This document shows, one piece after another, positions 18,606 to 54,455 of a stretch of 64,000 bases of DNA. Made by a program: the position numbers and the translations under genes. Within the stretch, counting starts at the first letter, position 1. Every line of letters starts with the position of its first letter. The stretch covers positions 1-64,000 of the forward strand of contig JAGKQI010000053.1 in assembly GCA_018806915.1 (NCBI GenBank). The letters run 5' to 3'. This DNA is from Phytophthora colocasiae. Taxonomy: Eukaryota > Oomycota > Peronosporomycetes > Peronosporales > Peronosporaceae. Under the pieces are notes generated by a model. The model searched no databases. It was not told the origin of the DNA and saw nothing but the letters and a program-made list of their open reading frames with translations.

Positions 18606-19066
18606 TGTAACGGGGTTACACGTACAAGTGGTTGTACCACTTGTAACTCTAACAGTTAGGATAACTGTTAGAGGTTGAAATGGGCTCAGACCTTGGTGTG
18701 CTGTACACACCAAAGGATACATGGGCGAACCACATTATTGGATGGTTCGTGTGCATTTGTGTGCATATTATTGGTAGAAAGTAACGGATTTCTACCAATC
18801 ACTGAGCAGAGTTTCTGCCAACCACACGTTGGCAGACCCTTTAGAAATAGATAAAAAACAGTTTTAGGAGGTCCATAATTGGCTTATGCCAAATTCAATA
18901 ACAGTTCTCATTTTACGGTATTTTTGCAGTTTAATTTAGTTATATTTGATTTAATTATACTTATTTAAATAAGTATACTTAAATTAAGTCTATTCTAATT
19001 GCACGCTTCCTCATACACGTAAGCGCACGTGTACGCCACCTAATAGGTCTAGGTAGACCCATTACA
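18606..19066 (+). repeat. LTR, family B (5' LTR of B1)
   Basis: 461 bp, TGTAACGGGG to CCCATTACA; the ends are an imperfect inverted repeat. It holds several perfect hairpins, for example 18624-18644 and 18647-18673 (12-bp stem, 3-nt loop). It also holds the 20-bp palindrome ATACTTATTTAAATAAGTAT at 18957-18976. TCTCATTTTACGGTAT at 18906-18921 fits the oomycete initiator and would start sense transcription about 160 bp before the LTR end. TGG two bases after the LTR (19069) may open the primer-binding site, but the tRNA match is not convincing. Confidence 0.92.
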
Positions 19067-19115
19067 CCTGGTAGCACTTTGTAGTCCGTCCCACGACCGA
19101 CTGCTGTTCGTTCGT

Positions 19116-20510
19116 ATGGAGTCATACGAACGCGGGGTAGAGAACTCCCCAATGGATGAGGGATCCACTGGGACCCCTCACATGTCCGTGACGCGCACGG
19201 ACTGTGCCCACCTGTCAGATCCAGAGTGGGAAGCTCTCCAAAGACTTTCACAAGTCATTGGAGAGGCAGCGGTAGCGACGATGCTTCGTACGCTATCGCC
19301 GACAGAGCAACACGGTGTTGCTCTGGGGTACATTGTTAAGGAGCAACGAGATGTTGCTGCCTCGGTGGCTTCCCCTAAGCCACGCGTGGAGTCGTTGAAA
19401 CTCCACGTGAGTACCTACACGGGGAAGGAGGACGAGACCCTCCTTCGGTGGCTTGTCGAACTCGACACAGCCGTTGCGGCTCGACGTATCGTCGATCCGA
19501 TGTCGAAGGTCGCGTTCGCCATGTCATGTCTTGGCGGACGTGCGAGGAGTTGGGCCTATGGGCGCCGACTCTCGGATCCTACGTGCTTCAGCACGTACGA
19601 GGTGTTCAAGGAGGAACTCAAGCTTGCGTTTGAGCCTCCGAAGAACGAGTTCAGATCGAGAGCAGAGTTTCTCGATCTGCAACAGGGCAAGGATGATGTT
19701 CACACCTTTGCCCAGCGTGCTCGATACTTGGTATCGAACATAGTGGCCAACCCGATCGACGAGGCGACCAAGGTCGTCACGTTCATGAAGGGACTAAGAG
19801 ATGGTCCCGTCAAAACATATCTCTTCCGAGAGTATCCGAATACTCTCGAGGAGGCGATCAGCCTTGCAATGCAAGAGGAGTTTAGCCGGCGTCAAGCTAA
19901 ACTCCATGCGAACGCGCCGAAGCCGGCGCGTCCTGTTGTGAAGACGGGAGGTCCGGAACCTATGGACCTCTCGAGTGCTACGACTGCTGGTCAACAGCAC
20001 CCTAGAAAACGCCAGGTTCGATTTTACAAGTGTAGTAACATCGGTCACTATGCACGCGACAGCACAGCGGGCGGGCGTTCAAAACGCCAAGGACCAGTAG
20101 GCGCGGGGCGTCCTGCTGGTGATGCAGTCTCGCGTGTCGAGCTTGGACACGCGACGATGAGGACTGCTGCCCCCAGCGAGAAGGTTTCTCGCTGTAAGCT
20201 GCAAGATGACAAGCCAAACCTTGTCATCCTGAACGTGATGTCGAAGAGAGCGAACTCTCTTCGTGCCCTAGTGGACTCGGGCGCGTCGAACAACTTTGTT
20301 CGACAGGGAAGTCTTCGAAGGCTTGACTTCGAAGAGGCCGACACGCCTCGCGGCGTGTTGGAGGTGCGGTTGGCAACAGGTGCCACCGTGAGAACTGAAG
20401 CGCGTAGTCCGTGTGCGCTTCTCTTACAAACGAAGGACGTTTGTAGAAGATCTTATCGTCTTGGATCTAGACGATAAGTTCGACTTGTATTAGGCATGCC
20501 GTGGCTTGCA
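19116..20510 (+). pseudogene. Family B gag and protease, copy B1
   Basis: One frame of 453 codons from ATG 19116. Residues about 100-260 are the retrotransposon gag region (MSKVAFAMSCLGGRARSWA, FRSRAEFLDLQQGKDDVHTF). A zinc knuckle follows, reading FYKCSNIGHYARDS: the first and last Cys of CCHC are replaced here, whereas B3 keeps CYKCSNIGHYAREC. Then comes an aspartic protease with LVDSGASNNFVRQ. Compared with B3, a two-base deletion near 20399 shifts the frame before the second protease motif (LVLGMPWL), and another single-base loss lies near 20487. Gag packages the RNA and protease cuts the polyprotein. This copy can make gag but not a full protease. Confidence 0.88.
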
Positions 20511-21602
20511 CGGCATGACCCGGTGATCAACTGGGAGAAGCGTACACTCGTACGCTTCAACGACACATGCGCGACAGAGAGCGATGGCCCTGTCAGTGCT
20601 GCACATGCACCGGCCGGTGCATGTGGATCCCCAGTTGAGGCAGCAGCGGCCGCCGCTGCCTCCGATCGCCGCCGGCGACCATCAACGACTCCGGGAGTCG
20701 TTGTGAGAAAATGTGTGTCGACTCAGAAATCTGAGCCGAAGGGTCGCGGTCACATGAGTGATGGTCAGGTGAATGTGAATCACCTGACGCGTAAACATCT
20801 GAATGATGTTTGTCACATGAGTGATGGTCAGGTGAATGCGATTCACCTGAGAGAAGGTAAAATACCGGTATTACCGGTATCCTTGGAGGTACTTCAAGCC
20901 CCCAAGGGTCGCGCCGACGACGTCGCGTCAACTCTGGGAGTTGACGAAGAAAATAAAATTCGGGGAACCGAAAGACGTGCGTCAGCTCTGGGAGCTGACG
21001 CCACTGGCGCTTCGCTGCTAGTTCCGGGAACTATGATCGGTCATCAGCTCCGGGAGCTGATGAGACGTGTATAGGCGAACAGTCGCTGCTAGTTCCGGGA
21101 ACTAGCGATCGTACATCCGCTCTGGGAACGGATGATATGTGTACAGCGAACACTCGCCAGCGCAGGAAGTTAGCGAGAGCACGTCGACTCCGGGAGTCGA
21201 CGATGCGGGTGCTTCATCCGCTCCGGGAGCGGATGGAGGCGCAGCGGTTCAGGGAACCGACTGCGCGGCAGGAGGTGCTGGCGGTTGCAAACGCCCAGCA
21301 CCCGAACAACCTGCGTGCTCACGTGCAGCAGCGCTGCACGCGATGAGCGGCACTCAAGCCGGGCTTGATAGTGCGAGTCAGCGGAAGGAATCCGCTGACG
21401 ATAGCGATAACGTCCCGTCCAAGGTGCGATGCCTTGGACGTGGAGCACCTGGAGCCGGGCTCCATGGTAGACCTTCGCGGCGCAAGCTCAGGGAGCTGCG
21501 CGAGTCTCAGTCCGGGACTGAGACGGGTGTGTCTGCAGTGCAGACACCGAGTGTCGAGACGTTGAACGTCTTGACACTCGTACTGGGTTACAGTACCAGA
21601 GG
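20511..21602 (+). repeat. Protease-RT spacer of family B with serial CCGGG-centred hairpins
   Basis: Between 20926 and 21259 about ten near-perfect palindromes follow each other: 20926-20946, 20979-21001, 21019-21033, 21041-21063, 21088-21106, 21114-21134 (one arm mutated), 21182-21202, 21215-21235 and 21245-21259. Stems are 6-10 bp, and the centre is usually CTCCGGGAG or TTCCGGGAA. The stretch stays largely open (20496-21074 and 21139-21642), so it can be translated as a low-complexity linker with repeated PG-type turns. B3 lacks about 490 bp of it (join near 44663). B4 begins inside it. Confidence 0.85.
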
Positions 21603-22694
21603 ATGCGGTTGGAGAATCCGCCGACGAGTGCGTCGGCGTTGACCGCACTTCCAACGATGAGTTGGAAGCGCTTCGCACGAGACTTGTACGATGGACGCAT
21701 CGAACAATTTTGCATTCTCTCGGATATCGAGAGAGTGGAGCGCGAGGCCGAAGAGCTGAAGCAGCTCGTCGTCGATGGGATCACTGAGGGTGATGACTCC
21801 CTCAGTGCGAAGACTAAGAAGCAGCGCTTCGAGGAGCAGAGTTGGGACTCGTTGAGGTCGTGTCCCTACTACGAAGTTCTGCGGGAGTACAAGGATGTAC
21901 TCCCGGACGAGATTCCTTCGGAGCTTCCGAAGGATAAGGGCGTACAGCACGAGATTGATCTCGTGCCGGGCACGAAGTACTGTGTTACACGGCAGTGGCC
22001 ACTGCCGCGTGAACAAGTGCAAGCGATCGACGACTTCTTTGAAAGTCGTCGTCTTGCAGGTCAAGTGCGGGAGTCAAAGTCCCCGCACAGTGCCCCAACG
22101 TTCTGTGTTAAGAAACCACAGGGCGGCTGGCGCATCGTTCATGCGTACAACAAGTTGAACGATGCGACGATACCGGCGCAGACGCCGATACCGCGAAAAG
22201 ATGTTATCATCGATTCGATGGCCTTGAGCACTATCTTCAGTGCTCTAGATCTGCGTGATGGATTCTATCAGATCCTCATGCGTGAGAGGGACATCCCTCT
22301 CACTGCGGTAAGCACTCCAAGCGGTATGCTTTGGGAGTGGCTCGTCATGCCGCAGGGGCTTAAGAACGCCCCTGCGACGTTCAATAGATGCGTGACACAT
22401 CTATTGCGCTCGGTGCGCGACTTCGCACCGAGCTACTTCGACGACGTGTTCGTCCACAGCCGGGCTGTGAACGGGAAGACGGACATTGAGATGCACAAGG
22501 TGCATCTCCGGAAGCTGCTAGAGCTTATGAGGAAACATAAGCTCTATGCGAACCTGAAGAAGTGTATCTTCGGGGCGAGCGAGATACCCGTGCTGGGGTG
22601 TCTCGTGGGGAAAGACGGCGTGCGCCCTGACCCAGAGAAGGTCAGAGTGATCAATGAATGGCCCACGCCATCCAATGTGAAGGAACTGAGGCAG
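21603..22694 (+). pseudogene. Family B reverse transcriptase, copy B1
   Basis: Opens MRLENPPTSASALTALP and carries the full RT set: VRESKSPHSAPTFCVKKP, GGWRIVHAYNKLN, the catalytic Asp in FSALDLRDGFYQI, MPQGLKNAPATF, the YFDDVFVHS active site (near 22435) and VLGCLVGKDGVRPDPEK. The frame runs on past 22694, but in the wrong phase. Ten bases present in B4 (in CAGTTCCTTGGGCTTGCC) are missing after 22696, cutting RT from RNase H. Through this stretch the DNA is lined with perfect hairpins (see findings). Confidence 0.92.
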
Positions 22695-23605
22695 TTGCCA
22701 CGTACTTATGCAAGTACGTGGAAAACTACGCGGGCAAGATTCGCCCATTGTCACAGCTTCTTAAGAAAGAAGCTGAGTGGATTTGGACGACCGAGTGCGA
22801 GGAGGCATTCGGTGCAGTCAAGCAGGGCTTGACTGAAGCGCCGATCTTGGCCGTGGCGGACCAAGATCGTCCATTCCACGTAGTGTGCGATGCATCCGAC
22901 TTTGCAATCGGATGTGCATTGATGCAACACGATCACGAAGGGCGTGATCGTGTAGTCTACTATCAATCGCGTCAGCTGAAGCCAGCTGAGCGTAACTATC
23001 CCGTACATGACAAGGAGCTCCTTGCCATGAAGTATGCACTCGCAAAGTTCCGAGTGTATCTACTTGGGAGTAGACCGTTCGTGGTCTATACAGACCACGC
23101 ATCATTGCGTACGGCGATTAAGTCGCCGCACATCTCGCAACGTATGGCGAGATGGTTGTCCTTCTTCGCGGAGTACAACTTCCGGGTGGAGTACAAACCC
23201 GGAAGACTCAATGTAGTGGCCGACGCGCTATCGCGTCGACCTGACTATGCGGAGACGGTCGACGCCAACGCTGTTGGCGTCGTGAGGACAAGTGTGCCGT
23301 CGTCAACGCTGATTGACGACGTGAAGAACGCGTATGCAAGGGATGCAGACGCGAAGGGGCTGCTGGAGTTCCTCGCAGCACCTTCCGACGTGGCACGTCG
23401 GAAGCTAACCCCTCATCTTCGAGCTCGTGTACACCGCTATCGTGTACACGAAGGCCTACTGTTGTACAGTGCAGTAGACGACAATGCGGATCGCATTGTC
23501 GTTCCGAATGATCATGACCTCCGGTTGAGGATCATGTTCGAGTATCACGATGCCCCCACGGCAGGGCATCCGGGTCGAGACGACATACACTCTTCTCACG
23601 CGTGA
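22695..23605 (+). pseudogene. Family B RNase H and integrase N-terminus, copy B1
   Basis: RNase H: FHVVCDASDFAIGCALMQ (catalytic Asp present, unlike family A), YYQSRQLKPAERNYPVHDKELL, VYTDHASLRTAI and NVVADALSRRPDY. It is followed by the integrase amino end up to HDAPTAGHPGRD, where two bases are lost relative to B4 near 23579 and the frame ends at 23605. The loss also breaks the 9-bp hairpin that other copies have there. Confidence 0.9.
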
Positions 23606-25245
23606 CTTCTACTGGCACCACCAGTACAAGTGGGTGCGCAAGTACGTACGTGCTTGCGAGGTTTGTCAACGCGTGAAGCCTGCGCAGTTCTCGCAGGCTC
23701 CTCTTCAATCACTACCGACTCCGTCGGAGTGTTGGCAGTCCATGTCCATGGACTTTGTCTTCGGTCTTCCGCTTGACAGCAAGCGGAGGACGGGCATCGT
23801 TGTCTTTGTGGACCGATTCAGCAAGATGGTTCATCTTGCTGCCGTCCCGGCTACTGTTACAGCCGCGCAGACTGCGCGACTGTTTGTTGACATGGTGTTC
23901 AAACACCATGGCATGCCGCTCGACATTGTGTCGGACCGTGATCCACGCTTCACAGCGCGGTTCTGGCAAGAAGTGTTTACACTTCTTGGTTCACAGTTAT
24001 CAATGTCGACTGCGGATCATCCGCAGACGGACGGACAGACCGAACGTGTCAACCGTGTATTGGGTGACACGTTGAAGAGCTACGCTCACTCGTTCCCGCA
24101 TTGGAGCGAGTGCTTGCCGATGGCAGAGTTTGCCATCAACAACTCGGTGCATGCCTCGACAGGGCATACACCGTTCTACGTGAACGCCATGAGGCATCCA
24201 CGATTGCCGAGCATGCTCGGCAGGGTAGCTTCCTCCTTAAGTGGGGGAGGATCTACGGTTGCGTCCGAACAACCGCAGAATGCAACTGATAGCAGCACAC
24301 TATCAGCTGCGGTGACGCGTGCGACGTCTCGTTCGAGCAGGAACGAGCGCGCGATGTCTGTGCCGGGCACAGACATGAGAGATGATAGCGAGCAGGCAGG
24401 GCCTGCTGCTGACAAGGGCGACAAGCTGAAAGAATTCAGCTCGGGTGCGCTAGACTTTGTCCAGCGAAGACAAGCCGTCATACGGTTTGTCCAGGATGCT
24501 ATCGCAGCTTCTGTCGATCGACAGAAGCTGAACGCAGATAATGTTGGTAGGGGCAACATAAATGAATTCAAATTGGGTTCATTGGTTTTGTTAGCTACGC
24601 AAAACCTACCTAAACATGCAGTGTCTGACTTTGGAGCAAGCAAGCTTGCTCCAAGATTCATTGGGCCGTTCAAAGTACTTGAACGGCACGGCAACGCGTA
24701 CCGGCTGGACATACCGTCCAGCATGAGGATCCACCCGACCTTCTACGTCGGGCGGTTGAAGCCGTACGTGCAGCACGGGCTACCTATGGCTGGTAGTCCG
24801 GCTGAGCAGTGCGAGAGGTCGATCAACCGGCTCACTCTTGTCCCAAGATCGGACGAGAGGTTCGAGGCAGTCTGAGCTGCCTCGCAGACCTCAGCACGGA
24901 GGACACGAACCTCCTGCTTCAGAGCCGCTATCTCAGCGCTCTGTGTCTGCTCCAGCGCAGCAACTCGATCGTGCAGGGCACGATCGTCATGGTCATAGCG
25001 TTGACCACGCGGAGGGAGTGTTCCCACCCCCTCCGCCGCCGTTGCGCGACGCGCGTGGAGCGATCCGCTGGATTGTTGAGCGGATCGTGGCTCATAAGAG
25101 AACGAACTCTCAAGGGGTTCGTTTTCGTATTCGTTGGAGAGGATTTCCTCCCCATCGAGATACGTGGGAGCCGCGGAACGTCCTGATGGAGGACGTTCCG
25201 GAAATGGTGAGGGCGTACGAAGCCCACCATAACTTGCAGGGGTAA
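23550..25245 (+). pseudogene. Family B integrase core, GPF module and chromodomain, copy B1
   Basis: Zinc-finger end CEVCQRVK. Catalytic Asp in SMDFVFGLP, Asp in DIVSDRDPRF and Glu in QTDGQTERVNRV make the DDE triad. The GPF-type module is RFIGPFKVLERHGNAYRLD with FYVGRLKPYV. Near 24830 a deletion relative to B4 changes frame. The tail (24838-25245) then gives a Pro-rich linker and the chromodomain (AIRWIVERIVAHKRTNSQG, FRIRWRGFPPHRDTWEPRN). The last 500 bp are also read on the other strand as the asORF. Confidence 0.88.
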
Positions 25246-25510
25246 GCCCTGCACGAGGAGTGCTGCGGTTAACCACAGCACTCGGAGCCTCGCGTGGCAC
25301 AATACGACCACGGAGCTCCTTGATGTGATCGGGTACACGGACGACCGTGTACTCCAGGAGATCACTTTCGGTGAGACGTGTTGCCAAAGGTTGGCAACAC
25401 GGACAGGGTGTGCCAAAGGGAACGGCACATGGGATCCCCGCTTCCATGGACTGATCATGGAGGCGTTCACACTTACCACGCGTAGTGTAAGTGTAGTAGC
25501 GATCGCGAGC
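24743..25510 (-). pseudogene. Family B asORF, C-terminal fragment, copy B1
   Basis: The minus-strand reading frame covers the DRYYTYTTRGKCERLHDQ region to the C-terminal coiled coil (AALEQTQSAEIAALKQEVRV). The N-terminal 260 residues are gone because family A sequence replaces them at about 25510. The codon that is TAG in B3 and B4 is a Gln codon here. The last residues differ from B2 because of a deletion shared with B3 (near 24827). Confidence 0.85.
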
Positions 25511-26383
25511 CGCGCTAAGTCGGACGACGAAAACCAAGTGGGCGGATCTGTTGGACAGTTTCCAGACCCAATATTGTGGATTGGGTACGTCGGTTGTGTG
25601 GCAATATTACCATGCCCGCAAACGGTCCGAAGAAACCCCTCTTGATTACCTTTATCGGCTCAAAACTCAAGATCAAGGACGGGAGCCCCAAGGCTCGTCG
25701 GGAACACGTCGATCATTATATCGAGACATTGGGTGATCCCGAACTAGTCGATCGGCTGACCTTGCTTCGGCTCACGGATGTCGAGGATCTGGAGGAAGTG
25801 CTTCGCACGCGAGAGAGAGCAAAAAGCAGACAGCGTAAGTCCGCATTCGGCTCGAAATATCGGCAGAAGATACCCGCTAGCGCCTCAACAGCGCCAGCTC
25901 GGGCTGTGGTGCGCGCGATTCAGGCCCATGATCCAAGTTCAGAGTCAGAAGAAGTCTCAGGATCGGACGGATCCGACTCCGAAGGCGATCTCCGGAGGAT
26001 ATATCTCGCTGCGGCAGATGACAAGTCAACCGGTACTGGGGGCGTTCCCCACCAGGCGGATCAACCACAATCTCACGCGAACACGCACGATCGGAGCCGG
26101 ATCTCGGATCGTCGCAGCTCGCCGGATCGATCGGAGCCGCTGTTCGCACTGCGGGTCCCGGAAACACACAGATCTGGACTGTTGGAGGCGTCTAACCTGT
26201 GATAAGTGCGGGAAAAGGGGTCACCCAACGGATCGCTGCCTATATACCAGCCGTGGTTGTGGGGAGATCCATGAAGCTGGAGAATGCCCCATGGAGGAAT
26301 TCTACAACCAGATCCGCAAGTGGTACGACCCGACCCGACATGCCGGATTGTTCCCCGAGAAGGTGGAAAAGATGTTAAACTAG
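25511..26383 (+). pseudogene. Family A gag (C-terminal half), copy A2
   Basis: Matches A3 gag from its SFQTQYCGLG region on. Visible are HVDHYIETLGDPEL, an acidic Ser-rich stretch (SSESEEVSGSDGSDSEGD) and three zinc knuckles: CSHCGSRKHTDLDC, CDKCGKRGHPTDRC and a third reading SRGCGEIHEAGEC. In the third, the first Cys found in A3 is Ser. The frame shifts near 25640 and 26100. The last codons are ATG TTA AAC TAG. Confidence 0.85.
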
Positions 26384-32670: not shown

Positions 32671-33453
32671 TAACACCCACAACTCTTCATCTTGACCCAC
32701 CGTGGGCACTGGGGCTTGGATCCGGCGCTTGGGTTCCTTAAGGGGTGCGATCGCGATCAGGGCGTCGTCGACCTTCGTTCTGGGCGTCACGCTGGCCGCG
32801 ATCACCCCCAGTATCTCATTTTCCCCTTTCGTACATTTCGTGATATTAAGCGACCATGGGGATAGGAGCGCGGACCACTGACCCAGGCGTCCCTGCAGAC
32901 CGGCGGACTTGAACAACCATGCCAGGGTAGAATACCGGGTCAAGACCTTGATCCGGCGTCCCATCAGCATGGTGTAGTACAGGTCCAGGATCCGCAGCAG
33001 AGCTAGCACTTCCTTTTCTGCGACATTGTAATTCAACGCGTTCGCCTTCAGGGTTCGGCTGGCGAACGCGACCAGGTGGTAGATCTGATCGTGTTCTTGC
33101 GTTAGCGCGGCGGAGATTGCCCAATTGCTGGCATACACGGTCACCACCGGCAATTTCGTCGTATCGAAGTGACGCAGGACCGGGGTGATTCCTCCGCTTC
33201 ACTGGGATGTCCCGATCCAGCCTCCGGACTTGTTCCATTGCCACGGTCAAGGCTCTCTTCCTCTTCGGACGGCGACGAGAACGGGTGGTCGGGACTTCTT
33301 CGTCCTGAAGATCACCGCCAGGTGGACCCGATCCTGGCTGATCAGCCGGCACCGGGGTCTGATCGGGGATCGAAATGTCGGTTTCCTCCTCCCCGGTCTG
33401 CCCGGAAGCTTGATCCGCCAACAGATCCAGAGGGCTCGTCGTTGATCCTGCAG
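32671..33453 (-). pseudogene. Family A linker fused to degenerate first RNase H, copy A1
   Basis: 33453-33191 is the protease-RT linker (GEEETDISIPDQTP). It joins directly at about 33190-33180 to PVLRHFDTTKLPVVTVYASN, the start of RNH1, so the whole RT is deleted. RNH1 keeps HLVAFASRTLKANALNYNVA but has Tyr in place of the catalytic Asp (33133-33135), as in A0. It therefore resembles the inactive connection/tether RNase H of dual-RNH elements. Confidence 0.8.
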
Positions 33454-33926
33454 TGTAATGGGTCTACCTAGACCTATTAGGTGGCGTACACGTGCGCTTA
33501 CGTGTATGAGGAAGCGTGCAATTAGAATAGACTTAATTTAAGTATACTTATTTAAATAAGTATAATTAAATCAAATATAACTAAATTAAACTGCAAAATA
33601 CCGTAAAATGAGAACTGTTATTGAATTTGGCATAAGCCAATTATGGACCTCCTAAAACTGTTTGTAATCTATTTCTAAAGGGTCTGCCAACGTGTGGTTG
33701 GCAGAAACTCTGCTCAGTGATTGGTAGAAATCCGTTACTTTCTACCAATAATATGCACAAATGCACACGAACCATCCAATAATGTGGTTCGCCCATGTAT
33801 CCTTTGGTGTGTACAGCACACCAAGGTCTGAGGCCCATTTCCAACCTCTAACAGTTATCCTAACTGTTAGAGTTACAAGTGGTACAACCACTTGTACGTG
33901 TAACCCCGTTACACCATCCCCCCGTT
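33454..33926 (-). repeat. LTR, family B (3' LTR of B2) with polypurine tract
   Basis: LTR 33454-33913 (460 bp), minus-strand TGTAACGGGG to CCCATTACA. On its internal side is the polypurine tract AACGGGGGGATGG (minus strand, 33926-33914), where plus-strand cDNA synthesis would start. Confidence 0.92.
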
Positions 33927-34002
33927 AAGATTCGACGTATCGGTCTCGATACGTCAATCAACAGAACTTGACAAGACCGTCAAGTTCCCAAGAGAAATCC
34001 GA

Positions 34003-34018
34003 GTTCATTTCGCAATGG
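34003..34018 (+). promoter_or_regulatory. Oomycete-type initiator of the B2 asORF
   Basis: GTTCATTTCGCAATGG matches GCTCATTYYNCAWTTT at 13 of 16 positions and overlaps the ATG (34015). Two perfect 8-bp hairpins (GACGTATC/GATACGTC near 33937-33958 and AACTTGAC/GTCAAGTT near 33965-33986) lie just upstream. Present unchanged in B3 and B4. Confidence 0.55.
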
Positions 34019-35562
34019 ACTCGCCAACGCCCACGTCTCCGTCCGCTACTGCGGACGCGCAAGCCTCACCTGCTGCCTCTGCAGCAGGAGCAACGACCTC
34101 AGCAGTGCTCACTAGCACTGCTGCTTCCAGCGGTTCGACAGAGAAGCTCTCTGTCACCAAGTACCATGCTCTCCATAAGGAGAAGCATGAGAAGAAGAAG
34201 AAGTCTTCTTCTCTAGCAGAGATTAAGAATCCTGCTGTCCCTCTCAAAGAACTCTTTGGAGAGGACTACGAAGACATCCTCGACTACGAGGAGGATGTCG
34301 GGGAGGGGGAGGTTGATGTCAAGGCTCCCGCTCCCGTGTCTTCGTCCGAAGACACGTCAGACCCACCCGTGGGATCTCGACGACCTCGTTATGAGGCCTC
34401 GGACGCTTCAAGCTCGAAGCGTCCGCGCAGTGATGGTGAAGCGTCCCCCATGTCGAGGGCGCTCACTACTCCACGCACTGATCCTCCAGTGCGTGCACCA
34501 TGGATGCCTACTGAGGCAGAAATCCATGACCGGTTCGGTGCTAGTTCACCACCGAACCCGATACTGTTGTACTCATGCAACAGTATCAACGACGACGACG
34601 TCGCCGCTAAGGTTGTCTTTGAGTCCGAGACTCAAAGACGCGACTACTATATCGGGCTCTTCCATGAGCTCCGATACTATGCAGCGAAGAAGACTTCGCG
34701 CAAGAGCAAAGTGCCCGAGTGGCAGGCACTTTGTCAGTCGTGGAACGCCTTTGTTGATAACTTCAACAAAGACCCGAAGGCATATCGCGAGCGCGTTGCT
34801 GCGGCTCGCGATCGCTACTACACTTACACTACACGTGGTAAGTGTGAACGCCTCCATGATCAGTCCATGGAAGCGGGGATCCCATGTGCCGTTCCCTTTG
34901 GCACACCCTGTCCGTGTTGCCCACCCTTGGCAACACGCCTTACCGAAAGTGATATCCTGGGGTACACGGTCGTCCGTGTACCCGATCACATCAAGGAGCT
35001 CCGTGGTCGTATTGTGCCACGCGAAGCTCCGAGTGCTGTGGCTGACCGCAGCACTCCTCGTGCAGGGTTTAACCCTGCAAGTTATGGTGGGCTTCGTACG
35101 CCCTCACCATTTCCGGAACGTCCTCCATCAGGACGTTCCGCGGCTCCCATGTATCTCGATGGGGAGGAAATCCTCTCCAACGAATACGAAAACGAACCCC
35201 TTGAGAGTTCGTTCTCTTATGAGCCACGATCCGCTCCACAATCCAGCGGATCGCTCCACGCGCGTCGCGCAACGGCGGCGGAGGGGGTGGGAACACTCCC
35301 TCCGCATGGTCAACGCTATGACCATGACGATCGTGCCCTGCACGATCGAGTTGCTGCGCTGGAGCAGACACAGAGCGCTGAGATAGCGGCTCTGAAGCAG
35401 GAGGTTCGTGTCCTCCGTGCTGAGGTCTGCGAGGAAGCTCAGACTGCCTCGAACCTCTCGTCCGGTCTTGGGACGAGAGTGAACCGGTTGATCGACCGTG
35501 TCGACGGTCTCGAGAAGGCCTTCCAGGCCTCTCGCACTCCTCAGTCGGACTACCAGCCATAG
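34015..35562 (+). CDS. Family B asORF, intact (515 aa), antisense to pol
   Basis: ATG 34015, stop 35562. Residues 1-50 are Ala/Ser/Thr-rich; 52-66 a Lys cluster (KEKHEKKKKSSS); 79-101 acidic; about 118-140 Ser/Arg with an NLS-like SKRPRSDG. Residues 160-283 form a compact region rich in Y and W (DYYIGLFHELRYYAAKK, WQALCQSWNAF, DRYYTYTTRGKCERL). A Cys cluster TPCPCC follows near 295. 320-430 is Pro/Ser-rich and about 438-508 a coiled coil (DRVAALEQTQSAEIAALKQE). The last 164 codons overlap the 3' end of pol in antisense. No family recognised, no signal peptide, no membrane span. The NLS-like run and coiled coil suggest a nuclear, self-associating protein; that is inference. Confidence 0.75.
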   Translation: MDSPTPTSPSATADAQASPAASAAGATTSAVLTSTAASSGSTEKLSVTKYHALHKEKHEKKKKSSSLAEIKNPAVPLKELFGEDYEDILDYEEDVGEGEVDVKAPAPVSSSEDTSDPPVGSRRPRYEASDASSSKRPRSDGEASPMSRALTTPRTDPPVRAPWMPTEAEIHDRFGASSPPNPILLYSCNSINDDDVAAKVVFESETQRRDYYIGLFHELRYYAAKKTSRKSKVPEWQALCQSWNAFVDNFNKDPKAYRERVAAARDRYYTYTTRGKCERLHDQSMEAGIPCAVPFGTPCPCCPPLATRLTESDILGYTVVRVPDHIKELRGRIVPREAPSAVADRSTPRAGFNPASYGGLRTPSPFPERPPSGRSAAPMYLDGEEILSNEYENEPLESSFSYEPRSAPQSSGSLHARRATAAEGVGTLPPHGQRYDHDDRALHDRVAALEQTQSAEIAALKQEVRVLRAEVCEEAQTASNLSSGLGTRVNRLIDRVDGLEKAFQASRTPQSDYQP

Positions 35563-37039
35563 GTAGCCCGTGCTGCACGTACGGCTTCAACCGCCCGACG
35601 TAGAAGGTCGGGTGGATCCTCATGCTGGACGGTATGTCCAGCCGGTACGCGTTGCCGTGCCGTTCAAGTACTTTGAACGGCCCAATGAATCTTGGAGCAA
35701 GCTTGCTTGCTCCAAAGTCAGACACTGCATGTTTAGGTAGGTTTTGCGTAGCTAACAAAACCAATGAACCCAATTTGAATTCATTTATGTTGCCCCTACC
35801 AACATTATCTGCGTTCAGCTTCTGTCGATCGACAGAAGCTGCGATAGCATCCTGGACAAACCGTATGACGGCTTGTCTTCGCTGGACAAAGTCTAGCGCA
35901 CCCGAGCTGAATTCTTTCAGCTTGTCGCCCTTGTCAGCAGCAGGCCCTGCCTGCTCGCTATCATCTCTCATGTCTGTGCCCGGCACAGACATCGCGCGCT
36001 CGTTCCTGCTCGAACGAGACGTCGCACGCGTCACCGCAGCTGATAGTGTGCTGCTATCAGTTGCATTCTGCGGTTGTTCGGACGCAACCGTAGATCCTCC
36101 CCCACTTAAGGAGGAAGCTACCCCGCCGAGCATGCTTGGCAATCGTGGATGCCTCATGGCGTTCACGTAGAACGGTGTATGCCCTGTCGAGGCATGCACC
36201 GACTTGTTGATGGCAAACTCTGCCATCGGCAAGCACTCGCTCCAATGCGGGAACGAGTGAGCGTGGCTCTTCAACGTGTCACTCAGTACACGGTTGACAC
36301 GTTCGGTCTGCCCGTCCGTCTGCGGATGATCCGCAGTCGACATTGATAATTGTGAGCCAAGAAGTGTAAACACTTCTTGCCAGAACCGCGCTGTGAAGCG
36401 TGGATCACGGTCCGACACAATGTCGAGCGGCATGCCATGGTGTTTGAACACCATGTCAACAAACAGTCGCGCAGTCTGCGCGGCTGTAACAGTAGCCGGG
36501 ACGGCAGCAAGATGAACCATCTTGCTGAATCGGTCCACAAAGACAACGATGCCCGTCCTCCGCTTGCTGTCAGGCGGAAGACCGAAGACAAAGTCCATGG
36601 ACATGGACTGCCAACACTCCGACGGAGTCGGTAGTGATTGAAGAGGAGCCTGCGAGAACTGCGCAGGCTTCACGCGTTGACAAACCTCGCAAGCACGTAC
36701 GTACTTGCGCACCCACTTGTACTGGTGGTGCCAGTAGAAATCACGCGTGAGAAGAGTGTATGTCTTCTCACGACCCGGATGCCCTGCCGTGGGGGCATCG
36801 TGATACTCGAACATGATCCTCAACCGGAGGTCATGATCATTCGGAACGACAATGCGATCCGCATTGTCGTCTACTGCACTGTACAACAGTAGGCCTTCGT
36901 GTACACGATAGCGGTGTACACGAGCTCGAAGATGAGGGGTTAGCTTCCGACGTGCCACGTCGGAAGGTGCTGCGAGGAACTCCAGCAGCCCCTTCGTGTC
37001 TGCATCCCTTGCATACGCGTTCTTCACGTCGTCAATCAA
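35069..37039 (-). CDS. Family B integrase with chromodomain, copy B2 (part of pol)
   Basis: 656 codons. Starts in the integrase N-terminus (MIDDVKNAYARDADTKG). Zinc module HDAPTAGHPGREKTY and CEVCQRVKPAQF. Catalytic Asp in SMDFVFGLPPDS, Asp in IVSDRDPRF, Glu in QTDGQTERVNRV. GPF module RFIGPFKVLERHGNAY. Then a Pro-rich linker and chromodomain (WIVERIVAHKRTN, FRIRWRGFPPHRDTWEPRN). The chromodomain and linker are opposite the asORF. It is the longest intact integrase in the window. A frameshift near 37037 separates it from RNase H, so it is not joined to RT unless translation shifts. Confidence 0.9.
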   Translation of the reverse strand: MIDDVKNAYARDADTKGLLEFLAAPSDVARRKLTPHLRARVHRYRVHEGLLLYSAVDDNADRIVVPNDHDLRLRIMFEYHDAPTAGHPGREKTYTLLTRDFYWHHQYKWVRKYVRACEVCQRVKPAQFSQAPLQSLPTPSECWQSMSMDFVFGLPPDSKRRTGIVVFVDRFSKMVHLAAVPATVTAAQTARLFVDMVFKHHGMPLDIVSDRDPRFTARFWQEVFTLLGSQLSMSTADHPQTDGQTERVNRVLSDTLKSHAHSFPHWSECLPMAEFAINKSVHASTGHTPFYVNAMRHPRLPSMLGGVASSLSGGGSTVASEQPQNATDSSTLSAAVTRATSRSSRNERAMSVPGTDMRDDSEQAGPAADKGDKLKEFSSGALDFVQRRQAVIRFVQDAIAASVDRQKLNADNVGRGNINEFKLGSLVLLATQNLPKHAVSDFGASKLAPRFIGPFKVLERHGNAYRLDIPSSMRIHPTFYVGRLKPYVQHGLPMAGSPTEECERPGRPSRDRRHGRSTGSLSSQDRTRGSRQSELPRRPQHGGHEPPASEPLSQRSVSAPAQQLDRAGHDRHGHSVDHAEGVFPPPPPPLRDARGAIRWIVERIVAHKRTNSQGVRFRIRWRGFPPHRDTWEPRNVLMEDVPEMVRAYEAHHNLQG

Positions 37040-38754
37040 CGTTCGACGTCGCCACTTGTCCTCACGACGCCAACGCAGTTGGCGTCGACCGTCTCCGCGT
37101 AGTCAGGTTGACGCGATAACGCGTCGGCCACTACATTGAGTCTTCCGGGTTTGTACTCCACCCGGAAGTTGTACTCCGCGAAGAAGGACAACCATCTCGC
37201 CATACGTTGCGAGATGTGCGGCGATTTAATCGCCGTACGCAATGATGCGTGGTCTGTATAGACCACGAACGGTCTACTCCCAAGTAGATACACTCGGAAC
37301 TTTGCGAGTGCATACTTCATGGCAAGGAGCTCCTTGTCATGTACGGGATAGTTACGCTCAGCTGGCTTCAGCTGACGCGATTGATAGTAGACTACACGAT
37401 CACGCCCTTCGTGATCGTGTTGCATCAATGCACATCCGATTGCAAAGTCGGATGCATCGCACACTACGTGGAATGGACGATCTTGGTCCGCCACGGCCAA
37501 GATCGGCGCTTCAGTCAAGCCCTGCTTGACTGCACCGAATGCCTCCTCGCACTCGGTCGTCCAAATCCACTTAGCTTCTTTCTTAAGAAGCTGTGACAAC
37601 GGGCGAATCTTGCCCGCATAGTTCTCCACGTACTTGCACAAGTACGTGGCAAGCCCAAGGAACTGCCTCAGTTCCTTCACATTGGATGGCGTGGGCCATT
37701 CATTGATCACTCTGACCTTCTCTGGGTCAGGGCGCACGCCGTCTTTCCCCACGAGACACCCCAGCACGGGTATCTCGCTCGCCCCGAAGATACACTTCTT
37801 CAGGTTCGCATAGAGCTTATGTTTCCTCATAAGCTCTAGCAGCTTCCGGAGATGCACCTTGTGCATCTCAATGTCCGTCTTCCCGTTCACAACCCGGCTG
37901 TGGACGAACACGTCGTCGAAGTAGCTCGGTGCGAAGTCGCGCACCGAGCGCAATAGATGTGTCACGCATCTATTGAACGTCGCAGGGGCGTTCTTAAGCC
38001 GCTGTGGCATGACGAGCCACTCCCAAAGCATACCGCTTGGAGTGCTTACCGCAGTGAGAGGGATGTCCCTCTCACGCATGAGGATCTGATAGAATCCATC
38101 ACGCAGATCTAGAGCACTGAAGATAGTGCTCAAGGCCATCGAATCGATGATAACATCTTTTCGCGGTATCTGCGTCTGCGCCGGTATCGTCGCATCGTTC
38201 AACTTGTTGTACGCATGAACGATGCGCCAGCCGCCCTGTGGTTTCTTAACACAGAACGTTGGGGCACCGTGCGGGGACTTTGACTCCCGCACTTGACCTG
38301 CAAGACGACGACTTTCAAAGAAGTCGTCGATCGCTTGCACTTGTTCACGCGGCAGTGGCCACTGCCGTGTAACACAGTACTTCGTGCCCGGCACGAGATC
38401 AATCTCGTGCTGTACGCCCTTATCCTTCGGAAGCTCCGAAGGAATCTCGTCCGGGAGTACATCCTTGTACTCCCGCAGAACTTCGTAGTAGGGACTCGAC
38501 CTCAACGAGTCCCAACTCTGCTCCTCGAAGCGCTGCTTCTTAGTCTTCGCACTGAGGGAGTCATCACCCTCAGTGATCCCATCGACGACGAGCTGCTTCA
38601 GCTCTTCGGCCTCGCGCTCCACTCTCTCGATATCCGAGAGAATGCAAAATTGTTCGATGCGTCCATCGTACAAGTCTCGTGCGAAGCGCTTCCAACTCAT
38701 CGTTGGAAGTGCGGTCAACGCCGACGCACTCGTCGGCGGATTCTCCAACCGCAT
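37036..38754 (-). pseudogene. Family B reverse transcriptase and RNase H, copy B2
   Basis: 572 codons open, from MRLENPPTSASAL to VVRTSGDVER. Full RT with FSALDLRDGFYQI, YFDDVFVHS and FLGLATYLCKYVENY. Full RNase H with VVCDASDFAIG, DKELLAMKYALA, YTDHASL and NVVADALSR. It ends in a short frameshifted tail (SGDVER and stop) where B1 and B4 read through into SVPSSTLIDDV. B3 has the same tail, so B2 and B3 share this indel. Gag and protease are missing because B3 follows at 38811. Confidence 0.92.
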
Positions 38755-38810
38755 CCTCTGGTACTGTAACCCAGTACGAGTGTCAAGACGTTCAACGTCT
38801 CGACACTCGG

Positions 38811-39283
38811 TGTAATGGGTCTACCTAGACCTATTAGGTGGCGTACACGTGCGCTTACGTGTATGAGGAAGCGTGCAATTAGAATAGACTTAATTTAAGT
38901 ATACTTATTTAAATAAGTATAATTAAATCAAATATAACTAAATTAAACTGCAAAATACCGTAAAATGAGAACTGTTATTGAATTTGGCATAAGCCAATTA
39001 TGGACCTCCTAAAACTGTTTGTTATCTATTTCTAAAGGGTCTGCCAACGTGTGGTTGGCAGAAACTCTGCTCAGTGATTGGTAGAAATCCGTTACTTTCT
39101 ACCAATAATATGCACAAATGCACACGAACCATCCAATAATGTGGTTCGCCCATGTATCCATTGGTGTGTACAGCACACCAAGGTCTGAGGCCCATTTCCA
39201 ACCTCTAACAGTTATCCTAACTGTTAGAGTTACAAGTGGTACAACCACTTGTACGTGTAACCCCGTTACACCATCCCCCCGTT
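38811..39283 (-). repeat. LTR, family B (3' LTR of B3) with polypurine tract
   Basis: LTR 38811-39270, 460 bp, nearly identical to 33454-33913 (few differences, for example the base at 39161). Polypurine tract AACGGGGGGATGG on the minus strand at 39283-39271. Confidence 0.92.
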
Positions 39284-39371
39284 AAGATTCGACGTATCGG
39301 TCTCGATACGTCAATCAACAGAACTTGACAAGACCGTCAAGTTCCCAAGAGAAATCCGAGTTCATTTCGCA

Positions 39372-40922
39372 ATGGACTCGCTAACGCCCACGTCTCCGTC
39401 CGCTACTGCGGACGCGCAAGCCTCACCTGCTGCCTCTGCAGCAGGAACAACGACCTCAGCAGTGCTCACTAGCACTGCTGCTTCCAGCGGTCCGACATCG
39501 AAGCTCTCTGTCACCAAGTACCATGCTCTCCATAAGAAGCATGAGAAGAAGAAGAAGTCTTCTTCTCTAGCAGAGATTAAGAATCCTGCTTTCCCTCTCA
39601 AAGAACTCTTTGGAGAGGACTACGAAGACATCCTCGACTACGAGGAGGATGTCGAGGAGGGGGAGGTTGATGTCAAGGCTCCCGCTCCCGTGTCTTCGTC
39701 CGAAGACACGTCAGACCCACCCGTGGGATCTCGACGACCTCGTGATGAGGCCTCGGACGCTTCAAGCTCGAAGCGTCCGCGCAGTGATGATGAAGCGTCC
39801 CCCATGTCGAGGGCGCTCACTGCCCCGCGCACTGATCCGCCAGTGCGCACACCATGGATGCCTACTGAGGCAGAAATCCATGACCGGTTCGGTGCTAGTT
39901 CACCACCGAACCCGATACTGTTGTACTCATGCAACAGTATCAACGACGACGACGTCGCCGCTAAGGTTGTCTTTGAGTCCGAGACTCAAAGACGCGACTA
40001 CTATATCGGGCTCTTCCATGAGCTCCGATACTATGCAGCGAAGAAGACTTCGCGCAAGAGCAAAGTGCCCGAGTGGCAGGCACTTTGTCAGTCGTGGAAC
40101 GCCTTTGTTGATAACTTCAACAAAGACCCGAAGGCATATCGCGAGCGCGTTGCTGCGGCTCGCGATCGCTACTACACTTACACTACACGTGGTAAGTGTG
40201 AACGCCTCCATGATTAGTCCATGGAAGCGGGGATCCCATGTGCCGTTCCCTTTGGCACACCCTGTCCGTGTTGCCCACCCTTGGCAACACGCCTCACCGA
40301 AAGTGATCTTCTGGGGTACACGGTCGTCCGTGTACCCGATCACATCAAGGAGCTCCGTGGTCGTATTGTGCCACGCGAAGCTCCGTGTGCTGTGGCTGAC
40401 CGCAGCACTCCTCGTGCAGGGTTTAACCCTGCAAGTTATGGTGGGCTTCGTACGCCTCACCATTTCCGAACGTCCTCCATCAGGACGTTCCGCGGCTCCA
40501 CGTATCTCGATGGGGAGGAAATCCTCTCCAACGAATACGAAAACGAACCCCTTGAGAGTTCGTTCTCTTATGAGCCACGATCCGCTCCACAATCCAGCGG
40601 ATCGCTCCACGCGCGTCGCGCAACGGCGGCGGAGGGGGTGGGAACACTCCCTCCGCATGGTCAACGCTATGACCATGACGATCGTGCCCTGCACGATCGA
40701 GTTGCTGCGCTGGAGCAGACACAGAGCGCTGAGATAGCGGCTCTGAAGCAGGAGGTTCGTGTCCTCCGTGCTGAGGTCTGCGAGGCAGCTCAGACTGCCT
40801 CGAACCTCTCGTCCGGCCTTGGGACGAGAGTGAGCCGGTTGATCGACCTCTCGCACTGCTCAGCCGGACTACCAGCCATAGGTAGCCCGTGCTGCACGTA
40901 CGGCTTCAACCGCCCGACGTAG
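39372..40922 (+). pseudogene. Family B asORF, copy B3 (one TAG and a small indel)
   Basis: Starts like B2 (MDSLTPTSPSATADAQASP). After ERLHD the Gln codon of B2 is TAG (40215-40217). Downstream the frame continues to 40922. One base is missing near 40456, so the LRTPSPFPERPP segment reads differently until a compensating change near 40497. The C-terminus differs from B2 because of a deletion near 40846. The same TAG is in B4. Confidence 0.85.
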
Positions 40923-42358
40923 AAGGTCGGGTGGATCCTCATGCTGGACGGTATGTCCAGCCGGTACGCGTTACCATGCCGTTCAAGTACTTTGAACGGC
41001 CCAATGAATCTTGGAGCAAGCTTGCTTGCTCCAAAGTCAGACACTGCATGTTTAGGCAGGTTTTGTGTAGCTAACAAAACTAATGAACCCACTTTGAATT
41101 CATTTATGTTGCCCCTACCAACATTATCAGCGTTCAGCTTCTGTCGATCGACAGAAGCTGCGATAGCATCCTGGACAAACCGTATGACGGCTTGTCTTCG
41201 CTGGACAAAGTCTAGCGCACCCGAGCTGAATCCATTCAGCTTGTCGCCCTTGTCAGCAGCAGGCCCTGCCTGCTCGCTATCATCTCTCATGTCTGTGCCC
41301 GGCACAGACATCGCGCGCTCGTTCCTGCTCGAACGAGACGTCGCACGCGTCACCGCAGCTGATAGTGTGCTGCTATCAGTTGCATTCTGCGGTTGTTCGG
41401 ACGCAACCGTAGATCCTCCCCCACTTAAGGAGGAAGCTACCCCGCCGAGCATGCTCGGCAATCGTGGATGCCTCATGGCGTTCACGTAGAACGGTGTATG
41501 CCCTGTCGAGGCATGCACCGACTTGTTGATGGCAAACTCTGCCATCGGCAAGCACTCGCTCCAATGCGGGAACGAGTGAGCGTAGCTCTTCAACGTGTCA
41601 CCCAGTACACGGTTGACACGTTCGGTCTGCCCGTCCGTCTGCGGATGATCCGCAGTCGACATTGATAATTGTGAGCCAAGAAGTGTAAACACTTCTTGCC
41701 AGAACCGCGCTGTGAAGCGTGGATCACGGTCCGACACAATGTCGAGCGGCATGCCATGGTGTTTGAACACCATGTCAACAAACAGTCGCGCAGTCTGCGC
41801 GGCTGTAACAGTAGCCGGGACGGCAGCAAGATGAACCATCTTGCTGAATCGGTCCACAAAGACAACGATGCCCGTCCTCCGCTTGCTGTCAGGCGGAAGA
41901 CCGAAGACAAAGTCCATGGACATGGACTGCCAACACTCCGACGGAGTCGGTAGTGATTGAAGAGGAGCCTGCGAGAACTGCGCAGGCTTCACGCGTTGAC
42001 AAACCTCGCAAGCACGTACGTACTTGCGCACCCACTTGTACTGGTGGTGCCAGTAGAAATCACGCGTGAGAAGAGTGTATGTCTTCTCACGACCCGGATG
42101 CCCTGCCGTGGGGGCATCGTGATACTCGAACATGATCCTCAACCGGAGGTCATGATCATTCGGAACGACAATGCGATCCGCATTGTCGTCTACTGCACTG
42201 TACAACAGTAGGCCTTCGTGTACACGATAGCGGTGTACACGAGCTCGAAGATGAGGGGTTAGCTTCCGACGTGCCACGTCGGAAGGTGCTGCGAGGAACT
42301 CCAGCAGCCCCTTCGTGTCTGCATCCCTTGCATACGCGTTCTTCACGTCGTCAATCAA
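40480..42358 (-). pseudogene. Family B integrase, copy B3 (chromodomain out of frame)
   Basis: The 522-codon frame 42358-40790 has the zinc module, full DDE triad and GPF module as in B2. It then runs out of phase at the deletion near 40846 (ends RPDERFEAV). The chromodomain (40722-40480: AIRWIVERIVAHK, FRIRWRGFPPHRDTW) is present in another frame and is broken at its end (SRGTS) by the indel near 40497. Confidence 0.88.
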
Positions 42359-44540: not shown

Positions 44541-44616
44541 ATCATCCGTTCCTAGAGCGGATGTACGATCGCTAGTTCCCGGAACTAGCAGCGACTGTTC
44601 GCCTATACACGTCTCA

Positions 44617-45737
44617 TCAGCTCCCGGAGCTAGTTCCCGGAACTAGCAGCGAAGCGCCAGTGGCATGCCGTGCAAGCCACGGCATGCCTAATACCAAGTC
44701 GAACTTATCGTCTAGATCCAAGACGATAAGATCTTCTACAAACATCCTTCGTTTGTAAGAGAAGCGCACACGGACTACGCGCTTCTCAGTCCTCACGGTA
44801 GCACCTGTTGCCAACCGCACCTCCAACACGCCGCGAGGTGTGTCGGCCTCTTCGAAGTCAAACCTTCGAAGACTTCCCTGTCGAACAAAGTTGTTCGACG
44901 CGCCCGAGTCCACTAGGGCACGAAGAGAGTTTACTCTCTTCGACATCACGTTCAGGATGACAAGGCCTGGCTTGTCATCTTGCATCTCGCAGCGAGAAAT
45001 CTTCTCGCTGGGGGCAGCAGCCTTCAACGTCGCGTGTCCGAGTTCGACACGCGAGACTGCATCACCAGTAGGACGCCCCGCGCCTACTGGTCCTTGGCGT
45101 TTTTTGAACGCCCGCCCGCTGTGCACTCGCGTGCATAGTGACCGATGTTACTACACTTGTAACATCGAACCTTGCCGTATCTACGCTGCTGTTGACCAGC
45201 AGTCGTAGCACTCGAGAGGTCCATAGGTTCCGGACCTCCCGTCTTCACAACAGGACGCGCCGGCTTCGGCGCGTTCGCATGGAGTTTAGCTTGACGCCGG
45301 CTAAACTCCTCTTGCATTGCAAGGCTGATCGCCTCCTCGAGAGTATTCGGATACTCTCGGAAGAGATATGTTTTGACGGGACCATCTCGTAGTCCCTTCA
45401 TGAACGTGACGACCTTGGTCGCCTCGTCGATCGGGTTGGCCACTATGTTCGATACCAAGTATCGAGCACGCTGGGCAAAGGTGTGAACATCATCCTTGCC
45501 CTGTTGCAGATCGAGAAACTCTGCTCTCGATCTGAACTCGTTCTTCGGATCTTGATCTCTCGATTTCTTGTTCACATATGCATAGATGCAGTACTCAGAA
45601 CGCTCGGCTCGTACCGGTTTCCAAACCGGCGAGCGTCCTAGTTTAACATCTTTTCCACCTTCTCGGGGAACAATCCGGCATGTCGGGTCGGGTCGTACCA
45701 CTTGCGGATCTGGTTGTAGAATTCTTCCATGGGGCAT
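44617..45737 (-). pseudogene. Chimeric frame: family A protease N-terminus fused to family B gag, then family B protease
   Basis: From 45737 to 45550 it reads the family A protease-frame leader (MPHGRILQPDPQVVRPD, then YCIYAYVNKKSRDQD). From 45549 it continues without a break in family B gag (PKNEFRSRAEFLDLQQ) through an intact zinc knuckle CYKCSNIGHYAREC. After a one-base shift near 45100 comes family B protease (45126-44617) with LVDSGASNNFVRQ and LVLGMPWL. The last codons (ATGASLLVPG) result from the spacer deletion. The fusion needs the family A frameshift signal to be read from gag. Confidence 0.85.
45601..45647 (-). promoter_or_regulatory. Candidate -1 ribosomal frameshift signal, gag/protease junction (A3)
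   Basis: On the minus strand GTTAAAC (45647-45641), TAG (45640-45638), then a hairpin from CGCTCG (45635-45630) to CGAGCG (45606-45601) with the inner 7-bp stem CCGGTTT/AAACCGG. Identical in plan to 26374-26420. Confidence 0.7.
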
Positions 45738-54369: not shown

Positions 54370-54455
54370 TGCGAAATGAACTCGGATTTCTCTTGGGAAC
54401 TTGACGGTCTTGTCAAGTTCTGTTGATTGACGTATCGAGACCGATACGTCGAATC

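Follow-up and report, generated by a model that had tools for sequence, protein, structure and literature searches.

Short perfect hairpins lining both strands of a Ty3/gypsy chromovirus in Phytophthora colocasiae: a possible selected fold at silent sites

Long terminal repeat (LTR) elements of Phytophthora yield small RNAs of both strands, and the retrotransposons of P. infestans are reported to give rise mainly to 24-30-nt small RNAs, sense and antisense, without clear strand bias (PMC3804510, PMC3522703). Plant Retand elements carry antisense open reading frames (ORFs) between pol and the 3′ LTR (PMC11963269). In yeast, work on inverted repeats whose arms exceed 9 bp ascribes the flipping of the spacer between them to template switching (PMC8604942). 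Here we analyze a 64,000-nt window of P. colocasiae DNA (positions 1 to 64,000 of contig JAGKQI010000053.1) from assembly GCA_018806915.1 (92.5 Mb in 105 contigs). The window contains four copies, with bodies 96-98% alike, of a Ty3/gypsy chromovirus family (B) that is lined with short perfect hairpins, together with a related Ty3/gypsy element, family C, that is lined with shorter ones. Our preferred reading, to which we give a probability of roughly 0.38, is that this strand-symmetric lining is selected, perhaps because it counters sense-antisense annealing and silencing.

By domain content B resembles the Ty3/gypsy chromoviruses of oomycetes, with gag, reverse transcriptase (RT), RNase H, integrase and chromodomain in order. 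Pfam searches identified Retrotrans_gag/Ty3_capsid, RVT_1, RNase H and integrase (H2C2, rve, SH3_Tf2-1) domains, and placed chromodomain PF00385 at residues 599-650 of the integrase ORF of the second copy (B2), that is, at the integrase C-terminus. The gag-RT-RNase H-integrase order, the chromodomain and, in B2, the LTRs at both ends are those of a chromovirus; the ORF at 20496-21074 has no match among the Pfam families, where a protease was sought. The B RT has 2008 relatives at E ≤ 1e-20. Those among the best 120 that name an organism come from oomycetes, mostly Phytophthora (several species), with Globisporangium and Peronospora, and the closest by identity in that set is from P. citrophthora (95% over 72% of the query). 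The hairpin lining may set B apart from these oomycete chromoviruses, with which it was compared at the protein level.

The first copy, B1 (18606..25513, + strand), comprises 5′ LTR, gag, linker, RT, RNase H and integrase, without a 3′ LTR. Its 6.9 kb hold 127 non-overlapping perfect stems of at least 7 bp with loops of at most 20 nt, and copies B2, B3 and B4 hold 103, 115 and 107 such stems, in agreement with an original prediction, made from the letters of the window, that the pattern recurs in all four copies. Stems take up 32-33% of B bases, and their lengths in B1 are 7 bp (32 stems), 8 (24), 9 (36), 10 (19), 11 (13), 12 (2) and 13 (1). The non-coding LTR of B1 (18606..19068, + strand) carries 8 hairpins with a mean stem of 9.4 bp, and the lining is densest in the linker between the gag and RT ORFs (20478..21602, + strand; 25 hairpins), which consists partly of tandem repeats. 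Many linker hairpins have a CC-g-GG core, and 20683-21524 is made of tandem-like CC-g-GG units whose outer arms differ pairwise between units; having been picked as palindromes, these units carry no evidential weight. The LTR start itself, as delimited by LTR alignment, is a small hairpin (18606-18620, TGTAAC-GGG-GTTACA). The original prediction had rested on eight perfect inverted repeats in a stretch of RT (22282..22721, + strand, there taken to 22722). All eight were recovered, with slight corrections to 22382-22406 (9 bp), 22455-22469 (7 bp, loop 1), 22519-22546 (11 bp) and, for the last, 22698-22721. The hairpins it had named in the LTR were likewise found, at 18623-18645 (10 bp) and 18647-18673 (12 bp), as was one at 34560-34587 (10 bp, loop 8) in an antisense ORF (asORF) of B2.

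When the window was scanned for stems of at least 8 bp with loops of at most 12 nt, 1-kb bins lying wholly or partly in B contained 6-20 of them and every other bin 0-2. Seven B ORFs, two of them overlapping and three from a second copy, were compared with protein-preserving codon shuffles (200 per ORF), a check that had been proposed with the prediction and that bore it out: the ORFs have 16, 16, 13, 12, 20, 25 and 27 stems of at least 8 bp (27 in the asORF, against 1.05 in its shuffles), shuffle means are 0.39-1.05, and the highest single shuffle of any B ORF reached 5. Five ORFs of C and of a further family, A, have 0 or 1. The chance figure first offered, 0.05 stems per 440 nt, is somewhat low, as the shuffle mean for the 1230-nt RT ORF is 0.54, or about 0.19 per 440 nt. 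Thirty B fragments besides B1, on many contigs, carry 10.7-14.7 stems of at least 8 bp per kb, and the poorest (L054, 10.7 per kb) is also the most diverged pol copy (94.7%). Proliferation of one hairpin along B is ruled out, since the hairpin sequences differ. So is a host-wide mutational habit: 139 kb of non-B sequence contains 43 stems of at least 8 bp (0.31/kb), against 9.19/kb in B-like sequence, a figure lowered by the inclusion of C-homologous sequence.

The hairpins of B are uniform in size. Paired bases in B1 make up a fraction of 0.30 one nucleotide away from the hairpin centre, 0.98 at 7 nt, 0.66 at 11, 0.41 at 12 and 0.26 at 14, and pairing stops about 11 nt from the centre in a similar way in LTR, genes and linker. 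The span of B1 hairpins, 22.4 ± 3.9 nt, is narrower than when loops are redealt among stems (sd 3.91 vs 4.52, P=0.001). Mean span lies between 21.0 and 24.2 nt in LTR, gag, linker, RT-RNase H, integrase and 3′ part; as coding and non-coding parts are alike, coding constraint does not set it. Neither regular spacing of the hairpins (coefficient of variation 0.56 vs 0.58 ± 0.05 at random) nor a loop motif, by a crude test on base frequencies, was found in B.

Within genes, the hairpins draw on synonymous sites, as the original prediction had reasoned they must, and entail no additional change in the protein. Divergence from relatives, at the 50% level, is no higher in stem codons (15/61 in one arm, 9/56 in the other) than in unpaired ones (45/244), with no asymmetry in protein divergence between 5′ and 3′ arms, and the hairpins of the RT ORF favour codon registers adjustable at wobble positions (17, 11 and 4). 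The protein sequences of the two families would allow similar numbers of stems of at least 9 bp, 80-126 per B ORF and 104 in C pol, of which B realises 15/91, 22/80 and 21/126, and C 0/104.

Evidence that the stems are maintained comes from variants among genomic copies. Two alignments were used, one of a 2.4-kb pol fragment in 27 copies (B1 plus 26 of the 30 others, the remaining four having failed a length filter) and one of an integrase/asORF fragment in 22 copies (B2 plus 21 of the 23 others, one without match and one too short); L043 and L055 were excluded from the RT set of the synonymous contrast. In RT and integrase together, which offer 232 synonymous-site equivalents in stems and 433 outside, variants private to one copy divide 30/53 between stems and the remainder, and those common to at least two copies divide 6/69 (p=2e-5). 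By part, the private and shared ratios are 23/38 and 3/45 in RT, and 7/15 and 3/24 in integrase, and the contrast holds (p from 2e-5 to 0.003) when stem thresholds are altered, when stems must be longer, when CpG sites are removed or when sharing is required among three copies. When all variants are taken, leaving aside the tandem-repeat part of the alignment (columns before 467), 5/43 of those common to at least three copies break stems, 5/30 of two-copy variants and 92/259 of private ones, against an expected 38.9%; among the four LTRs, none of 9 variable events falls in stems, which make up 150/465 columns. An apparent excess of hairpin gains among two-copy variants proved to be an artefact of the misaligned tandem-repeat part of L043 and L055. 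Stem-breaking synonymous changes are thus depleted about sixfold in the still-transposing lineages of RT and integrase. Since private changes strike stems at the background rate and shared ones avoid them, an inserted copy appears to lose its stems over time and the lineages still transposing to retain them, for which purifying selection on the element is the simplest reading.

The hairpin lining also covers the asORF (34015..35562, + strand; 515 aa). It has 495 protein relatives at E ≤ 1e-5, and the organism-naming ones among the 120 listed are all from Phytophthora (43-87% identical). Homologous stretches at 24818-25522 (- strand; partial, in B1), 39501-40847 (+) and 52825-54243 (-) place it in all four B copies, and a search of the rest of the window and of 30 C loci, each about 5.1 kb long, gave no match. 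The product has no Pfam family above cut-off and no TRP28 match at E ≤ 0.01, and is predicted, with low confidence (model mean pLDDT 52.5), to be mostly helical with a C-terminal coiled stretch. Shared variants in the asORF-only part include 37 nonsynonymous and 34 synonymous changes, near-equal numbers that indicate a protein weakly constrained or partly decayed. Retand elements have an antisense gene in the same place, but theirs mostly encode TRP28, and the text available mentions no hairpin lining for them (PMC11963269).

Family C (54930..61500, ends approximate, - strand; pol at 56253-58891) had been described as free of the pattern, together with family A. That holds for long stems in C and for the three A ORFs tested; From 55 to 61 kb, however, C has a lining of its own, made of shorter hairpins (stem 4-6 bp, loop 3-6). 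In C pol the maximal stems of 5 bp number 52, against 20.9 in codon shuffles, and those of 6 bp 16, against 7.0, with loops of 3-6 favoured, whereas stems of at least 7 bp are at shuffle level (4 vs 2.05). The short-hairpin test was extended to six of 30 rows of C copies. Five rows have 48-51 hairpins with stem at least 5 and loop 3-6 per 2.2 kb, against 11.2-13.1 in codon shuffles, and the sixth (1.4 kb) has 30; shuffles over all six rows give 6.6-13.1. The 30 C loci contain 0.39-2.35 stems of at least 8 bp per kb, the highest value belonging to one (L017) that bears an old B gag fragment. As regards A, neither hairpins nor folding energy exceed codon shuffles in A_RT and A_INT; in A_pr the hairpins are not clearly in excess and the folding energy is modestly so (z -4.4 on the sense strand, -2.4 on the antisense). 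Scored against dinucleotide shuffles, the 1-kb bins of C (55-61 kb) reach z 7.3-15.9 and full B bins z 3.9-15.7; bins outside B and C range from -1.9 to 2.5, save 46-47 kb (5.6) and the C edge at 61-62 kb (4.1). Of 43 C hairpins mapped onto B pol, 5 have their dyad in common with a B hairpin: 3/23 in RT (shifted mean 0.25, highest 2) and 2/20 in integrase (shifted mean 0.20, highest 1). Two of the five differ by paired changes (TGATC/GATCA vs TGGTC/GACCA; GCGAC/GTCGC vs GCGAT/ATCGC), and this dyad sharing may in part be plain inheritance.

The reading of a selected lining builds on the excess over shuffles, the uniform hairpin size, the contrast between private and shared variants, the conserved antisense gene, the small RNAs of both strands known from Phytophthora LTR elements and, as set out below, the lack of G-U preference and the likeness of the two strands. 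B and C are tiled by perfect Watson-Crick hairpins whose size is particular to the family (stems of 7-11 bp in B, with pairing out to about 11 nt on each side of the centre; 4-6 bp with loops of 3-6 in C), the tiling covering LTR, genes and linker of B, and its antisense gene as well. According to this proposal, each single strand, whichever is made, would be kept self-paired in short local hairpins, with individual stems staying below the double-stranded RNA (dsRNA) length used by silencing enzymes; sense and antisense transcripts would anneal poorly, and less dsRNA-triggered silencing might follow. Several points weigh against it. Taken alone, the integrase contrast is suggestive (p=0.09); the asORF-only part shows none (4/27 vs 5/29); and C, with 20/77 vs 14/105, goes in the same direction without significance (p=0.09; 0.21 and 0.54 with other stem definitions). 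Only one compensatory change was seen within the B family, and C is lined, yet no relative of the B asORF was found in it. Inverted repeats are reported to be the most potent small-RNA sources of P. infestans (PMC3804510), and Sirevirus palindromes in maize to attract small RNAs (PMC10760457), although those structures may be longer than the stems of B and C. Finally, 25-nt windows fold on average no more stably in B than in C (-4.88 vs -4.80). In B 10.3% of them reach -10 kcal/mol or below, against 2.0% in C, and below 25 nt B windows are on average less stable than those of C. On the 25-nt average, self-folding or inactivation of single small RNAs was rejected as the purpose of the lining. 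A broader claim, which we advance tentatively and hold to be rather doubtful, is that an oomycete retrotransposon clade carries a family-tuned hairpin code, with one hairpin about every 54 nt in B and a similar density in C, independent of protein and motif and selected for folding of both strands; it would amount to a general escape from dsRNA silencing by keeping strands apart, with stem length (about 5 bp in C, 9 bp in B) as a quantitative trait.

The alternative that survives best, though we consider it unlikely, is a fold-back ratchet in which RT would often let the nascent strand fold on itself, rewrite one arm after the other and then resume its template, turning near-palindromes into perfect ones; protein-changing events would be weeded out and each family's enzyme would set its own stem and loop size. 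Fold-back switching had been suggested as a cause in the original prediction, and template switching does occur at the hairpins. Two copies carry exact loop inversions (L044, 5 bases; L041, 3 bases) and in a third (L072) the loop matches an inversion but for two changes; the flanking arms measure 10-11 bp in each case. These are 3 of 1467 loop comparisons, reference rows included, each private to one copy. In B there are five clean runs of at least 3 changed bases, each inside a hairpin loop (three assigned by script, two by eye at 5-6-bp stems), and none was found in 30 copies of C, the two copy sets having been picked by different searches. Pairing by Watson-Crick rules alone and the family-specific size would also fit the ratchet, as would private hairpin gains nominally above chance (21/259 vs 5.1% expected, p=0.034), which fall to 15/253 once six gains from a single run in B3, displaced by an indel, are left out. 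Small deletions and duplications private to one copy are also numerous at or near B hairpins, with 71 blocks of at least 3 rare differences in 115 kb against 6 in 66 kb of C.

What the ratchet predicts for the upkeep of stems is largely missing. At majority-mismatched pairs, shared cells restored pairing 9 times and failed to do so 6 times, with a restored pair in 7 copies (at one or a few sites) and in 2 more, but private changes restored it 4 times and did not 8 times. The search for paired compensatory changes that had been proposed as a check turned up one among the 26 shared stem changes listed (a few columns counted twice); the other 25 stay mismatched. Copying able to clear shared stem variants should, moreover, have erased the many stems with one mismatch that each of the four copies carries, and proteins are not more diverged at stems than elsewhere. 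With restored and compensatory pairs too few in the 27 and 22 aligned copies for switching to account for the upkeep of perfect stems, we read it as a by-product as regards their maintenance; it may have had a part in their origin. Coding constraint masks part of the compensation that the ratchet predicts, and the ratchet is more plausible for how the hairpins arose than for how they are kept.

The remaining alternatives turn on pairing rules. A fold required of the sense RNA should welcome G-U pairs. In each of the four B copies, near-stems interrupted once by G-U are about as frequent as those interrupted once by A-C; in B1 as a whole, with arms of 8, there are 44 A-C and 26 G-U near-stems, against 3.0 and 3.4 expected from shuffles. 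Private mutations in B are biased likewise (93 A-C-making, 68 G-U-making), so that much of the A-C surplus comes from the private mutation spectrum, and its interpretation as minus-strand wobble was set aside. In C pol, where perfect stems are far in excess, arm-5 near-stems number 52 for G-U (44.1 ± 6.4 expected) and 41 for A-C (37.1 ± 5.0). Of the changes within stems, 7 shared and 46 private ones create G-U, and 13 and 57 create A-C; variants of every kind outside stems, counted on a slightly different set of columns, number 177 and 332 (p=0.001 and 0.006 for the two contrasts). Wobble is therefore not favoured on either strand, which means that folding of both strands, or of DNA, matters, and not an ordinary fold of sense RNA. 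A role in single-stranded DNA, with hairpins organising or protecting complementary DNA (cDNA) during reverse transcription as structure or as a family-specific protein landing site, agrees with this low tolerance of wobble, with hairpins in all parts including the LTR and with their family-specific size. We nevertheless judge it distinctly improbable, given that the slight A-C surplus is near the mutational one and that we know of no protein or step that needs hairpin-folded cDNA.

Genome-wide ordered structure, or dispersed packaging stem-loops, of the sense RNA appears less probable again. Selection for RNA structure had been the other cause initially put forward, and the idea of selection is supported. 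Folding energies, computed in 150-nt windows against 40 codon shuffles, exceed those of the shuffles on the sense strand by 30-38% in B gag, RT and integrase and by 15% in C pol, where loops of 3-6 are favoured as well. The antisense strand, however, folds about as strongly: sense/antisense z values are -16.1/-12.0 in gag, -18.1/-16.1 in RT, -15.5/-15.1 in integrase, -19.1/-14.3 in the asORF and -6.3/-6.5 in C pol. Together with the avoidance of G-U stem changes like any others, the absence of a special excess of G-U near-stems and the lack of a loop motif noted above, this argues against ordinary sense-RNA structure. Chance, composition, codon usage or an assembly artefact can be dismissed, given the codon and dinucleotide shuffles and the dense lining of the 30 further fragments on many contigs.

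The LTRs of B in the window measure about 463 bp (18606-19068, 33453-33913, 38809-39270 and 54469-54929). B2 (33453..39270, - strand) has the second and third at its ends, with its RT/RNase H ORF at 37036-38754 and its integrase and chromodomain ORF at 35069-37039, both on the - strand. B3 (39271..45549, - strand) adjoins the LTR at 38809-39270 and is cut at its 5′ end, as is B4 (49255..54929, + strand), which ends in the LTR at 54469-54929. B2 and B3 are arranged head to tail, apparently with the LTR at 38809-39270 in common. The 3′ end of B1 (25513/25514) and the 5′ end of B3 (45549/45541) both stop against relatives of one sequence, their flanks (25514-26480 and 45541-46528) being 82% alike. 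At 46000-46750 there is a short-hairpin excess (14 vs 3.6 per kb, stem at least 5, loop 3-6) without long stems; the 82% relative of this sequence at 25514-26480 has none. No relatives outside the genome were found among the viral contigs searched. One record filed as a Phycisphaerae metagenome-assembled genome (PAFA01000096.1) contains a gypsy-type RT with 35% identity and no hairpin lining, and is probably a eukaryotic contaminant.

If the selected-lining reading is right, the hairpins are a new constraint on coding sequence that acts on hundreds of synonymous sites, and perhaps the trace of a new contest between element and host. They would form a hidden layer of information at silent codon positions, seemingly kept by selection. 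Long stems in B, short ones in C and none in A allow a comparison within one genome. If the hairpins are instead the footprint of RT fold-back, they would reveal an enzyme writing palindromes into its own genome. No description of a short, fixed-size, strand-symmetric fold selected along a whole mobile element was found among the papers that the literature searches listed.

Among described systems, the genome-scale ordered RNA structure of some RNA viruses resembles B and C in folding beyond codon shuffles along coding regions. It differs from the perfect short stems of fixed size seen here, which are alike on both strands and show no G-U preference; B has the excess of energy over codon shuffles expected of such structure and lacks the tolerance of G-U in sense stems that is our own criterion for it. 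Dispersed packaging signals of RNA viruses likewise consist of many stem-loops along a genome (PMC6281560), while B has neither G-U preference nor, by the crude test, a loop motif. The yeast events at short inverted repeats share with B the inversion of loops between arms longer than 9 bp, but they are rare single events in 39 genes (PMC8604942), whereas in B the hairpins line the entire element and conversion of arms still under way has left little trace. Maize Sirevirus, also an LTR retrotransposon with clusters of palindromes, is described as having clustered palindromic motifs with an abundant consensus in an LTR cis-region (PMC10760457); in place of one repeated LTR motif, B has hairpins of differing sequence along the whole element.

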